From assembly GCA_947462685.1 (NCBI GenBank), contig CANHPL010000001.1, forward strand, positions 186,001-250,000: DNA of 64,000 nucleotides, written 5' to 3'. This DNA comes from Burkholderiaceae bacterium. Lineage in GTDB: Bacteria; Pseudomonadota; Gammaproteobacteria; Burkholderiales; Burkholderiaceae. The translations under genes and the position numbers were made by a program. Positions 18,488 through 23,670 of this stretch are shown piece after piece. Every line of letters begins with the position of its first letter. Position 1 is the stretch's first letter. Below the pieces are notes generated by a model. The model saw only the letters and a list, made by a program, of their open reading frames with translations. It was not told the DNA's origin and ran no database searches.

Positions 18488-19027
18488 ATGGATGTATTCA
18501 AACGTCAATTTATATGGAAATCAATCGGGTTGATGAGTGTATCTGCATTATTTGTATCGCCCTACAGTCTTGCCCAATCTAGTTACTATCTCCCGAGTCG
18601 ATTGATGAATCTTTATCTGATTCATCAATCGCCGTTTACGAAGAATTTTCTATTCTTTACCATTCAATGCTCTAACCCGGTATTGGATTTTGTTAATAAA
18701 GGGCAGCGTCTACTTTTAAATTGCAATATTGAAATTTCAGCACCAAATCAAAAACCAGTTCAGGGGGAGTTAGCCCTTGACTCTTCATTTCAATACGATC
18801 CAAAAACCTATCAAATTGCTTTGTTTGACCCCAAATTATCTTCAATCCATTTGGATGCTTTAAATGAAAAAGATAATCTTCTTTTAAAACAATTAAGTTC
18901 CTTTTTTGGTCCAATTTTTCATCAACAAGTAGTGTATGAATTATCTGCCTCTGATCTCAAAATGTTAAAAAAGCCACCATCCTCAATACGTATTGAGGAT
19001 GGTGGCTTACGTTTTAACTTTGATTAA
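18488..19027 (+). CDS. Hypothetical secreted protein
   Basis: N-terminal signal-like segment (SIGLMSVSALFVSPYSLAQS); no recognised domain. Confidence 0.6.
   Translation: MDVFKRQFIWKSIGLMSVSALFVSPYSLAQSSYYLPSRLMNLYLIHQSPFTKNFLFFTIQCSNPVLDFVNKGQRLLLNCNIEISAPNQKPVQGELALDSSFQYDPKTYQIALFDPKLSSIHLDALNEKDNLLLKQLSSFFGPIFHQQVVYELSASDLKMLKKPPSSIRIEDGGLRFNFD
18971..19008. terminator. 38-bp perfect palindrome between convergent genes, possible bidirectional terminator
   Basis: AAGCCACCATCCTCAATAC|GTATTGAGGATGGTGGCTT, preceded by an A-run; lies inside the 3' end of ORF 18488-19027. Confidence 0.75.
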
Positions 19028-19866
19028 TCTTCTAAGTTGTGCAGAATTGAAATCGTCGGTTCAGCCATGTTTAAGGTATAGAAATGTAGACCTGGAGCAC
19101 CACCAGCAATCAGCTGATGACACAAATCTGTTACCACTTCTAGCCCATAAGCTTTGATAGATTGAGTATCATCACCGAAACTTTCAAGTCGCTTACGTAA
19201 CCAACGAGGAATCTCCGCTCCACAAGCATCAGAAAAACGAATTAACTGTGTACTGCTAATTATGGGCATAATCCCCGGAATAATGGGTACATGAACATCA
19301 TAACTACTGACATCTTCTAAAAATTGAAAATATGCATCTGAATTAAAAAAGTACTGCGTAATAGCTGAGTTAGCGCCAGCTTGTATTTTTTGGACAAACT
19401 TTTCAATATCATCTACAGCAGAACTCGCCTGAGGATGAAACTCTGGATATGCTGCAACTTCAATATGAAACCAATCACCCGTAGCTTCTCGAATAAAAGC
19501 TACGAGTTCATTGGCGTGATTAAACTCTCCATAATTTCCCATTCCAGAGGGTAAATCACCTCGCAATGCGACAATTCTTTTGATGCCTATGGCTTGGTAT
19601 TGATGCAACAATTCCAAGACCTTTGCTTTGGTACTGCCCACACATGATAAATGCGGAGCTGCAGCAATACCGCCTTCATGTATCTCTCGAACGGTATTCA
19701 TTGTGCCATCTTGAGTTGAACCCCCAGCGCCAAATGTTACTGAGAAGAAGCTTGGGGCTAACTCTTGAATAAGTCGCCCCCTCACTACCCGTAGTTTTTC
19801 AGCGCCCTCTTCTGTCTTAGGAGGGAAAAATTCGGCGCTGAGTTCAATATTGTCGAGTAGGCTCAT
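19024..19866 (-). CDS. metF: Methylenetetrahydrofolate reductase
   Basis: LSAEFFPPKTEEGAEKL; SVTFGAGGSTQDGT; LHFYTLNMAEPT. Confidence 0.97.
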   Translation of the reverse strand: MSLLDNIELSAEFFPPKTEEGAEKLRVVRGRLIQELAPSFFSVTFGAGGSTQDGTMNTVREIHEGGIAAAPHLSCVGSTKAKVLELLHQYQAIGIKRIVALRGDLPSGMGNYGEFNHANELVAFIREATGDWFHIEVAAYPEFHPQASSAVDDIEKFVQKIQAGANSAITQYFFNSDAYFQFLEDVSSYDVHVPIIPGIMPIISSTQLIRFSDACGAEIPRWLRKRLESFGDDTQSIKAYGLEVVTDLCHQLIAGGAPGLHFYTLNMAEPTISILHNLED

Positions 19867-19869
19867 TGT

Positions 19870-21303
19870 TTAATAGCGGTAATGATTTGGTTTAAATGGC
19901 CCAGATTTATCCACGCCAATGTAATTCGCTTGTTGATCGGTCAGAACTGTTAATTCTGCATTTAAATTCTGTAATTGCAAAATTGCCACTTTTTCATCTA
20001 AATGCTTAGGCAGTGTATAAACTCCAATCGGATACTCTTTGGTATGTGCTTTTGTCCATAACTCAATTTGCGCAATTGTTTGATTCGCAAATGATGAGCT
20101 CATCACAAAAGACGGGTGACCTGTTCCACAACCTAAATTGACTAGGCGGCCTTTTGCTAAAAGAATAATTCTTTTTTCTGGTTGACCATTTTGCGCTGGG
20201 AAAATGATGTGATCAACTTGCGGCTTAATTTCTTCCCATTGATATTTTTCAACACTAGCAACATCAATTTCGTTATCAAAGTGACCAATATTACATACAA
20301 TCGCTTGGTTCTTCATCTTGAGCATGATGTCATGAGTAATTACATGATAGTTTCCCGTTGCTGTAACAAAAATATCTGCTTTATCAGCTGCATATTCCAT
20401 CGTTACGACTCGATAACCTTCCATTGCCGCTTGTAGTGCACATATTGGGTCAACTTCTGTTACCCAGACTTGTGCAGATAATGCTCTTAATGCTTGAGCT
20501 GATCCTTTACCAACATCGCCATAACCGGCAACAACAGCTACCTTACCCGCAATCATGACATCGGTCGCACGCTTAATTGCATCTACTAAAGATTCGCGGC
20601 AGCCATATAAATTATCAAATTTACTCTTTGTTACTGAATCATTCACATTGATTGCTGGGAATTTCAGTTCACCTTTAGCAAACATTTGATACAAACGATG
20701 AACACCCGTTGTAGTTTCTTCAGTAACTCCCTTAACTTCAGCTAAGCGGACGGAATACCATGTTGGATCAATAGCTAATTTCGCTTTAATCGATGCGTAC
20801 AAGATTGTTTCTTCTTCGCTCGTTGGATTATTTAAAACAGAACTATCTTTTTCAGCTCTTGCTCCGAGGTGCAATAACAAAGTTGCGTCTCCACCATCAT
20901 CTAAAATCATGTTGGAGTAGGTTTGATCATTCCACTCAAAGATACGATGTGTAAAGTCCCAGTACTGTTCTAAAGTTTCGCCTTTGATGGCAAATACAGG
21001 TGTGCCATTTGCTGCGATTGCCGCAGCTGCATGATCTTGCGTAGAGTAAATATTGCATGACGCCCAACGCACTTTAGCACCCAATGCTTCAAGTGTTTCA
21101 ATTAACACTGCAGTTTGAATCGTCATGTGTAATGAACCAGTAATTCGTGCGCCTTTTAATGGCTGTGCAACTTGATACTCTTTACGAATTGCCATGAGTC
21201 CTGGCATTTCTGTTTCAGCAATAGCGATTTCTTTTCGTCCAAAATCAGCTAATGTGATATCAGCAATAACATAATCGTTTTTTAAATTTGATACTGAGTT
21301 CAT
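19870..21303 (-). CDS. ahcY: Adenosylhomocysteinase
   Basis: [27 protein letters not shown]...; C-terminal [10 protein letters not shown]; start set at MNSVSNLKN. Confidence 0.97.
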
Positions 21304-21376
21304 GCCACTCTCCAAAAATTACAGAAATCTCGAGGGGCTGTAATGAAAGCCCACCAACCAAGAGTTCAAAAGGTTA

Positions 21377-21472
21377 GTGAGCGCCGTTGCCTAGACTCTT
21401 TCTTGAGTCCCTCCAAGCCTGGGGTAACTTAGATATAAATCATCTAAGTTAACCTCGCAACGCTCCTTGGAG
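21377..21472 (-). promoter_or_regulatory. SAH riboswitch upstream of ahcY-metF
   Basis: Minus strand reads CTCCAAGGAGCGTTGCGAGGTTAACTTAGATGATTTATATCTAAGTTACCCCAGGCTTGGAGGGACTC...CAACGGCGCTCAC: P1 CCAAGG/CTTGG, conserved GGAGCGxTGC, CCCAGGCT, and the 3' CAACGGCGCTCAC pseudoknot strand. Confidence 0.9.
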
Positions 21473-21483
21473 AATTTTAAATA

Positions 21484-22650
21484 TTATAAACCTGCTGCAG
21501 ATTTCAGTGCGATTACACGATCTCGAGCTTCCCAGGTAAACTCTGGCTCTTCACGACCAAAGTGGCCATATGCGGCCGTTTTACGATAAATTGGTCGAAG
21601 AAGATCAAGCATTTTTACAATACCTTTTGGTCTTAAATCAAAGTGCTCACTCACCAACTTTGAAATTTCCTCATCAGATATTTTGCCAGTTCCGTAGGTG
21701 CTCACCATCACTGAAGTTGGTTTTGCAACACCAATTGCATAAGAAACTTGAACTAAACACTTTGATGCCAAGCCAGCCGCAACGACATTTTTTGCAACAT
21801 AACGAGCAGCATATGCAGCGGATCTATCTACTTTGGATGGGTCTTTTCCAGAAAATGCGCCACCGCCATGAGGTGCTGCGCCACCATAAGTGTCAACAAT
21901 GATTTTACGGCCAGTCAAACCACAGTCTCCTTGTGGTCCACCAATCACAAATCGACCTGTAGGATTTACCAAATACTTGATTTCACCCTTGATGAGTTCT
22001 TTTGGCAATACCGGTTTAATAATTTCCTCAATCACCGCTTCACGTAACTTGTCCAATTCCATTTCTGGGGAGTGTTGTGTAGACAATACAACCGTATCGA
22101 TAGAATCAGGTCGACCATTCACATAGCGCAAAGTGACTTGTGATTTAGCGTCAGGTCTTAACCAATTGAGTCTTCCATCTCGACGCAGTTGTGATTGACG
22201 CTCTACTAAACGATGCGAAAGATAAATCGGCATTGGCATGAGTTCTGGTGTTTCATCAACGGCATACCCAAACATCAACCCTTGATCGCCTGCGCCTTGA
22301 TCTAAAGGATCATCTTCAGCTTTATTAACGCCCTGTGCGATATCTGGGCTTTGTTTGTCGTAAGCCACTAAAACAGCGCAGCCACGATAATCAATACCAA
22401 AATCGGTATTATCATAGCCGATTTCACGAAGCGTTTCTCGAGCTACTTTGATGTAATCTACGTTGGCCGAAGTGGTAATCTCACCAGCGAGTACAACTAA
22501 ACCAGTATTACAAAGTGTTTCTGCTGCAACTCTTGCTGTAGGATCCTGCGCAAGAATTGCGTCAAGAATAGAGTCTGAGATTTGATCAGCAACTTTGTCA
22601 GGGTGACCTTCGGATACAGATTCAGATGTGAAAAAATAATCATTTGCCAT
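21484..22650 (-). CDS. metK: S-adenosylmethionine synthetase
   Basis: [61 protein letters not shown]. Confidence 0.98.
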
Positions 22651-22668
22651 ATAAGTTCCTTAATTAAA

Positions 22669-22691
22669 AGTTCGACAACACGTGCCGAACT
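22669..22691 (-). terminator. Hairpin upstream of metK start, candidate expression platform / weak terminator
   Basis: Minus strand AGTTCG-GCACGTGTTGT-CGAACT followed by TTTTAATT. Confidence 0.5.
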
Positions 22692-22697
22692 ACCTAT

Positions 22698-22755
22698 ACG
22701 GCGACGCTTTAGCAGAATTTATAGTCGCCCTGCAAGTTGTCTTAACTCGGCGATG
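22698..22755 (-). promoter_or_regulatory. SAM-II (SAM-alpha)-type riboswitch aptamer upstream of metK
   Basis: Minus strand TCGCCGAGTTAAGACAACTTGCAGGGCGACTATAAATTCTGCTAAAGCGTC: P1 TCGCC/GGCGA, L1 ...TTAA..TTGCA, then ATAAA and GCTAAA, colinear with the SAM-II consensus as I recall it. Confidence 0.82.
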
Positions 22756-22761
22756 ATAACT

Positions 22762-22790
22762 AGTATAACGATTCTTCTGAATTTTTTCAA
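22762..22790 (-). promoter_or_regulatory. Sigma70-type promoter for metK leader
   Basis: Minus strand TTGAAA-17 nt-TATACT, ending just upstream of the riboswitch. Confidence 0.75.
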
Positions 22791-22821
22791 ACTTCATGTT
22801 TTTTTGCATATCATATAGGGA

Positions 22822-23670
22822 ATGCATTGGTTAATTCATCTTATCGGTCGCCTTCCTTTGAAGTATCTACAATCCGTAGGTGCTTTTTTAGGTCTCTTAA
22901 CTTATTGGTTCTCACCAAAAGATAAGGCTTTGATCCTTGAAAATTTATCGTATGCCCACCAGCTATATAGCTTTCAAGCAAACCCGAAAGAGGTTGCCAA
23001 GTCTGCTGGAAAAATGTTAACAGATAGTCTTTGGATTTGGCAACACCCGACAAAGGCCCTTCAAAAAACAGAATTGATTCACTGGGATATCGTAGAAAAT
23101 GCAATGGCAGAGGGTAAGGGACTACTAATGCTGACCCCTCATTTAGGTGCATTTGAAATGATCCCACGTGTCTTGGCGGAACATTTTCCTGCGACTATTA
23201 TTTATAAACCCGCTAAACAACATTGGTTGAATGATCTGATTGAAGAAGGTAGAGCACATCCTCGCATGAACTTTGTACCTGCAAATATGCAAGGAGTTCG
23301 TCAAATTGCTCGCGCCCTGGTCCGCGGTGAAGCCGTCGGAATCCTCCCAGATCAAGTGCCAGGAAATGGCGAAGGTGTTTGGGCCCCATTTTTTGGTAAG
23401 CCTGCCTACACTGCCGTTTTACCCGCAAAGATTGCTCTGAAAAATAATATACCTACGATTATTTTTTCGGCGATTAGAAAACCCGATGGCGCTGGTTGGT
23501 CCGTAATTGCCCAAAGAATGTCAGAACCGTTTAATACTGATCCAGTTGCTGCTGCAACACAACTCAATCATTTTTTGGAACAAATAATTATGAACAATCC
23601 TGATCAATATCTTTGGATGTACAAAAGATACAAGCACCCTATTGGTGCGCCACTGCCTCCTTCAGTATGA
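22822..23670 (+). CDS. Lipid A biosynthesis / lysophospholipid acyltransferase family
   Basis: LTPHLGAFEMIPRVLAEHFPATIIYKPAK...GILPDQVPG; HX4E motif. Confidence 0.9.
   Translation: MHWLIHLIGRLPLKYLQSVGAFLGLLTYWFSPKDKALILENLSYAHQLYSFQANPKEVAKSAGKMLTDSLWIWQHPTKALQKTELIHWDIVENAMAEGKGLLMLTPHLGAFEMIPRVLAEHFPATIIYKPAKQHWLNDLIEEGRAHPRMNFVPANMQGVRQIARALVRGEAVGILPDQVPGNGEGVWAPFFGKPAYTAVLPAKIALKNNIPTIIFSAIRKPDGAGWSVIAQRMSEPFNTDPVAAATQLNHFLEQIIMNNPDQYLWMYKRYKHPIGAPLPPSV

Follow-up and report, generated by a model that had tools for sequence, protein, structure and literature searches.

Among the described riboswitches, SAM-II and SAM-V are the closest to the leader considered here. In SAM-II, nucleotides U10, U11, U12, U20, U21, G22, C23, G42, C43, U44, A45, A46 and A47 are listed as invariant (PMC3764141). 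The closest structural analogue, SAM-V, acts as an OFF switch of translation (PMC6061858). In its pocket, two U from a U:A.U triple face the sulfonium, the adenine of SAM is paired to another U and one A holds the amino acid end; at the equivalent of position 10, a U hydrogen-bonds the adenine-reading U without touching SAM (PMC6061858). The view of an initial annotation of this locus that SAM-II is best known from alphaproteobacteria is too narrow, given the Bordetella SAM-II listed by Corbino (2005; PMC1273637) and the beta- and gammaproteobacterial metX/metZ leaders treated below. For betaproteobacteria, a metXZ RNA element was described by Leyn et al. (PMC4239095), and according to this 2014 survey of methionine regulation, attempts to find a betaproteobacterial regulator of metK were unsuccessful (PMC4239095). 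A described betaproteobacterial metK RNA was not found in the open-access literature, and with Rfam as the RNA catalogue searched, the element reported here is apparently uncatalogued as an RNA family. A conserved, SAM-II-derived leader in Burkholderiales would provide a testable answer to the question of the missing metK regulator.

The element is located on the minus strand of the window, i.e., the whole 64-kb stretch of DNA that was analyzed, in the following context:

19024-22790, minus strand: cluster of metK with its SAM-II-like leader, an SAH riboswitch, ahcY and a MetF-like ORF
19870-21315, minus strand: ahcY, downstream of the SAH riboswitch
21372-21474, minus strand: SAH riboswitch directly 3' of metK and before ahcY (Rfam RF01057, 51.8 bits, above the gathering score)
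21484-22650, minus strand: metK (SAM synthetase, from the ORF call), the gene regulated in the proposed model
22657-22661, minus strand: Shine-Dalgarno-like AAGGA, judged by its placement relative to the metK ATG
22698-22756, minus strand: SAM-II-like aptamer, the whole 59-nt match of covariance models R2 and R1
22762-22790, minus strand: sigma70-like promoter TTGAAA-17-TATACT (10/12 matches), which would start transcription just before P1

The MetK protein of the window is 87-91% identical to MetK of same-genus genomes, with the most similar proteins found in a Burkholderiaceae bacterium and in Polynucleobacter, so that the window probably stems from a Polynucleobacter-like organism. Besides metK, no SAM synthetase gene was found in the genome of the window. 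As three promoter-like matches occur in 500 bp where 1.4 are expected, the promoter on its own is weak evidence. When the window is scanned with cmscan, a single match exceeds the gathering thresholds, the SAH riboswitch, which begins about 10 nt past the metK stop. Since this riboswitch and ahcY follow right after metK, the gene appears to be flanked by a SAM-type and an SAH riboswitch at its two ends. An SAH riboswitch is likewise situated right after metK at locus L066. The cluster in the window is closed by the MetF-like ORF (19024-19866), which was named from its sequence only. The metX gene of the same genome (28975-30111) lies inside an operon, and a search for a SAM-II-like copy upstream of it showed that this operon is without such a leader.

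Detection, helices and pocket of the metK leader

Running the Rfam SAM-II model on the leader, a check proposed in the initial annotation, gave no support for that class: a cmscan of 22600-22850 with E values up to 10 returned no SAM_alpha, SAM_V or SAM-II_long_loops, and neither RF00521 (threshold 36 bits) nor RF01826 (threshold 41 bits) matched the window even at E 10. Seventeen matches of RF00521 in the whole genome of the window, scoring up to 17 bits, are considered noise, as all 14 control genomes gave matches too. RF01826 had no match anywhere in 299 genomes, which leaves this search with no positive control and hence uninformative. In relatives, RF00521 produces full-length, sub-threshold matches at the homologous leader position, with 20.3 bits at L058 and 19.9 bits at L070 (E 0.012 for the L070 leader alone).

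Detection is clear with models derived from metK leaders. R2, a covariance model built from 28 leaders, all from outside the genus of the window, scores the element at 64.7 bits (E 4e-16), its only significant match across the 64 kb; the runner-up reaches 7.8 bits (E 1.1). R1, which contains the window sequence, yields 72 bits and a single significant copy in the genome of the window. The secondary R1 matches in this genome (up to 16.8 bits) were discarded, the two best being without the L1 motif on inspection. Of 20 alphaproteobacterial SAM-II loci, R2 also recovers 15 at the place matched by RF00521, so the metK-leader family and SAM-II are homologous.

The aptamer is composed of the following parts:

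22749-22753, minus strand: P1 5' strand UCGCC, pairing with 22725-22729
22743-22748, minus strand: GAGUUA (G8 A9 G10 U11 U12 A13), third triplex strand by pocket comparison
22741-22732, minus strand: GACAACUUGC, present as given in the initial annotation
22739-22741, minus strand: P2b 5' strand GAC (pseudoknot), pairing with GUC at 22703-22705
22730-22735, minus strand: P2a 5' strand UUGCAG, with UUGC invariant and the last two positions covarying
22725-22729, minus strand: P1 3' strand GGCGA, covarying with the P1 5' strand
22703-22715, minus strand: CUGCUAAAGCGUC, comprising the P2a 3' strand, bulged U44, A45-A47 and the P2b 3' strand GUC
22713-22703, minus strand: GCUAAAGCGUC, located where the initial annotation had placed it

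All sequence elements listed in that annotation were indeed recovered in place on the minus strand, with one correction: the run after CGAACT, given as TTTT, contains three T (TTTAATTAAG). The metK leaders of same-genus and other Burkholderiales genomes share the pattern UCGCC-GAGUUA-n-GACAACUUGC-RGGGCGA-(optional stem)-AAAU-CYGCUAAAGCGUC, and GCUAAA is present in all 97 parsed metK leaders. Among 36 distinct leaders, 98.3% of the P1 and pseudoknot cells are paired, compared to at most 50% with the partner slid, and double-sided changes are found in five of the six P1 pairs (six of six in a larger set whose alignment was fitted to the model). The two outer pairs of P2a covary (GC 20/AU 14 and GC 32/AU 4), P2b shows a GC to AU double change in four sequences with 100% of cells paired, and the CUGCUAAAGCGUC segment covaries with L1. 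The covariation of P1 and P2 is thus retained in the orthologous leaders, and the proposed SAM-II-type, H-type pseudoknot of P1 and P2 is supported in P1, P2a and P2b. The assignment of the element to metK also stands, as it recurs upstream of this gene across Burkholderiales; its conservation in metK leaders of this order is far beyond chance.

Of the 13 positions invariant in SAM-II, 12 are kept in 96-97 of 97 metK leaders, U11 and U12 each in 96. The exception is position 10, which is G in 88 leaders including that of the window, U in six and A in three; in metZ leaders matched by the same model, it is U in 26 of 27. The three A10 cases probably reflect a register effect, because these gammaproteobacterial leaders seem to have a P1 that is one pair longer. 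Equivalents of all the ligand-contacting nucleotides named above for SAM-V are kept in the metK leaders. By comparison with the roles assigned in SAM-II and SAM-V, these include U11/U21 for the sulfonium, which U11 would face, U44 for the adenine and A47 for the amino acid end (PMC3764141; PMC6061858). Since the position 10 equivalent of SAM-V does not touch SAM, G10 is probably a second-shell change. The metK leaders thereby offer naturally occurring variation at a position of the pocket that was regarded as invariant.

Distribution and element types

R1 matches 180 of 250 Burkholderiales genomes (E up to 0.05). For the GTDB class Gammaproteobacteria, the figure is 99 of 369 genomes (E up to 0.01), with both types of element counted in each case. 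In Burkholderiales, the metK element occurs in Burkholderia, Cupriavidus, Bordetella/Achromobacter and Polynucleobacter relatives, among others. The gene context was recorded for 192 model matches, a non-random sample: 98 are located upstream of metK, 84 of them with GAGUUA, and 27 upstream of metZ, 25 of them with GAUUUG. The other matches precede metX, metE, AAA ATPases or genes not covered by the query set, and non-metK matches with a named gene are mostly found upstream of metZ/metX. The metZ/metX type carries CAGCUUGC in L1 and, in 18 of 29 leaders, an intrinsic terminator. Three metX leaders (L139-L141), scored by RF00521 at 36.2, 28.5 and 23.3 bits, sit where metXZ was described (PMC4239095), from which we infer that the metXZ element is SAM-II-like.

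Two gammaproteobacterial genomes (L142 and L143) exhibit a GAUUUG-type element upstream of metK, with RF00521 scores of 39.2 and 34.1 bits; SAM-II-like control of metK would consequently not be confined to the G10 form. SAM-II-like RNAs were also found at L188, L191, L192, L196-L198, L216, L230, L231, L233-L235, L241, L242 and L247, in most cases as tandem pairs in which a GAUUUG-type copy is followed about 90-200 nt on by a GAGUUA- or GAUUUA-type copy, a layout resembling the SAM-II/SAM-V tandem of Pelagibacter. The genes that follow code for MATE-family exporters (Pfam MatE, E 4e-28 at L233 and 6e-29 at L241) and/or consist of an ORF of about 100 aa that starts with MYDC and is without a Pfam match.

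In genomes of the GTDB class Gammaproteobacteria (L153-L155, L158-L160 and L165), SAM-II-like copies occur singly, in tandem or in threes upstream of genes outside methionine metabolism, namely AAA/MoxR-type ATPases (L153, L158 and L160), an HD-domain protein (L165) or unnamed ORFs. A GAUUUA-type element (R1, 46-51 bits) precedes ORFs at L161, L163 and L164, that of L161 coding for 175 aa without a Pfam match. RF02424 (Bp2_287, "Burkholderia sRNA") has sub-threshold matches on the strand opposite to SAM-II-like leaders, which suggests that this family may be a SAM-II-like leader recorded on the wrong strand:

L154, 1574-1696, plus strand: RF02424 sub-threshold match
L158, 1582-1690, plus strand: RF02424 sub-threshold match
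L159, 1376-1499, minus strand: RF02424 sub-threshold match
L167, 1458-1594, plus strand: RF02424 sub-threshold match
L176, 1508-1566, minus strand: RF02424 sub-threshold match

The replacement of an invariant U by G in most metK leaders, with U retained in nearly all metZ leaders, could indicate that the aptamers of the G10 branch have altered or loosened their choice of ligand (e.g., SAH, or SAM as well as SAH) while still regulating metK, and the relatives upstream of MATE exporters and of the uncharacterized ORF fit such a change. Nevertheless, we regard it as very unlikely: the SAH-rejecting, sulfonium-facing U11 and U21 are kept, and a separate SAH riboswitch serves the neighboring ahcY. 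In addition, G10 and U10 forms both occur at metK, which argues against a ligand change, and both occur at MATE genes as well, so that position 10 does not track the gene. It is also quite unlikely that the elements at metK, MATE and AAA genes constitute a distinct, SAM-II-descended aptamer class whose changes at position 10 and in P2b alter the ligand or the selectivity; if this were the case, the tandem arrangement with a true SAM-II copy would place exporters and other genes under a switch with two inputs.

Expression platform and proposed mechanism

Downstream of the pocket, the leader contains strands that could couple the pseudoknot to the start of metK:

22699-22706, minus strand: CGU-C-GCCG, 5' strand of H2, which overlaps with the P2b 3' strand, complementarity kept
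22692-22702, minus strand: sequestering strand GCCGUAUAGGU, pairing with 22646-22656 in the predicted fold
22681-22687, minus strand: H2 3' strand CGGCACG, complementarity kept
22669-22691, minus strand: hairpin AGUUCG-N11-CGAACU, followed by UUU and nested inside the sequestering stem, the "terminator" of the initial annotation
22646-22656, minus strand: start-codon region ACUUAUAUGGC, the sequestered partner in the predicted fold

In every lineage, the H2 5' strand has a complementary partner further downstream; over 41 distinct strands, the duplex with the own partner has -12.6 kcal/mol, compared to -9.0 with shuffled partners and -10.0 with mismatched ones (p about 6e-9). The segment that follows the H2 5' strand acts as the putative anti-Shine-Dalgarno strand. 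Over 79 representative metK leaders, its own target is bound with -15.0 kcal/mol, versus -11.3 for mismatched and -12.1 for shuffled sequences (p 5e-10 and 4e-8), and the helix over the Shine-Dalgarno/start region varies by lineage. Taken alone, the 8-bp anti-start duplex of the window is no better than its shuffled versions (-6.6 versus -6.3). The predicted minimum-energy fold of the window (-24.6 kcal/mol) places GCCGUAUAGGU on ACUUAUAUGGC, with the start codon fully paired.

The initial annotation had proposed transcriptional attenuation, in which SAM binding lets the AGUUCG/CGAACU hairpin terminate transcription, while without SAM a GACAAC/GUUGUC antiterminator forms. In favor of this proposal, the window and its clade do contain both the hairpin and the complementary hexamers, in the nearest relative (L039) the hairpin is followed by a long run of T, and SAM-II-like metZ/metX elements mostly carry terminators. 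In the window, however, the U run amounts to UUU only, and the hairpin is without a counterpart in most relatives. A conserved intrinsic terminator between aptamer and gene is absent from metK leaders, a terminator-like hairpin being present in one of 98, versus 18 of 29 metZ/metX leaders. Both competing pairings of the annotation exist: GGCGAC/GUCGCC is partly conserved in leaders and forms transiently in several prefix folds, but GACAAC/GTTGTC does not hold as a general antiterminator, as it is exact in only eight of 91 leaders, all within the window's own clade. Attenuation is thus not a conserved mechanism of these leaders and, as an explanation for the window, appears unlikely. The conserved competitor is H2 instead, which, together with the sequestration of the Shine-Dalgarno/start region, points to a translational mechanism as the likely one. 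The SAM-II-like RNAs of beta- and gammaproteobacteria would accordingly be split into a terminator type at metZ/metX and a translational type at metK, sometimes arranged in tandem.

The metK leader is therefore best explained, and with good probability, as a riboswitch from the SAM-II/SAM-V superfamily that senses SAM and switches off the translation of metK; its ligand, direction and mechanism we infer from homology and gene context. In this model, plentiful SAM would stabilize the triplex and P2b so that H2 cannot form, and the H2-loop strand, left free, would cover the Shine-Dalgarno sequence and start codon, switching metK off. When SAM is scarce, H2 would capture the H2-loop strand during transcription and metK would be translated. 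In the clade of the window, GGCGAC/GUCGCC may also help to capture this strand.

Apart from G10 in the pocket, a point against this model is that equilibrium folding of 93 leaders showed no significant difference in Shine-Dalgarno accessibility between a free (0.26) and a blocked (0.23) P2b strand (p 0.38). For the window, the sequestered fold (-24 kcal/mol) far outweighs the H2-enforced one (-11.7 kcal/mol), which means that the ON state has to be reached kinetically or with the help of additional pairings such as GGCGAC/GUCGCC. The strength of the sequestering stem at equilibrium and its insensitivity to the modeled ligand state would also fit a leader that is a structured protein target or a start-codon stem sensing temperature instead of a metabolite sensor. 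This is highly improbable, as conservation sits exactly on the SAM-II triplex positions and not on the stem.

Comparison with known riboswitches

The metK leader shares with SAM-II (RF00521) the H-type pseudoknot, the third strand with U11 and U12, UUGC opposite GC-U-AA with bulged U44, A45-A47, the L3 adenines, the association with a methionine-pathway gene and a promoter just before P1. It differs in that the window element falls below RF00521 detection and has G at position 10, while in the metK element P2a is longer by two covarying bp, P2b is short (GAC/GUC), an optional stem is found between P1 and L3, and the platform appears translational rather than a terminator. Consequently, the initial identification as a SAM-II aptamer is upheld for the type of pseudoknot but not as plain membership, in view of the missing RF00521 and RF01826 matches, G10, the longer P2a and the short P2b.

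Like SAM-V (RF01826), the metK element combines the same pocket with a longer P2 and putative translational OFF control, and the tandem of a SAM-II-plus-terminator copy and a translational copy has its parallel in Pelagibacter. Unlike SAM-V, the window element has no RF01826 match. Furthermore, the Shine-Dalgarno sequence of SAM-V is part of a 2-bp P2a helix, whereas in the metK element H2 would gate a separate, distal helix that covers it. In the window, the Shine-Dalgarno sequence (22661-22657) is situated on the 3' side of the aptamer, about 40 nt away from its end (22703) and outside of the P2a helix.

The metXZ element (Leyn et al., 2014; PMC4239095) is likewise a betaproteobacterial pseudoknot leader. 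The metX/metZ leaders found by RF00521 and R1 contain UUGCRG and CYGCUAAAG, as do metK leaders, but are distinguished by U10 (GAUUUG), CAGCUUGC in L1 and the terminator. The SAH riboswitch (RF01057), located upstream of ahcY in the window, belongs to the same operon region and pathway, yet its fold and ligand are unrelated. As 12 of 13 pocket positions are kept, and RF00521 and the models built here cross-detect weakly at the right places, the sequence comparisons identify the metK leader as a divergent branch of the SAM-II/SAM-V superfamily and not as a plain SAM-II member.
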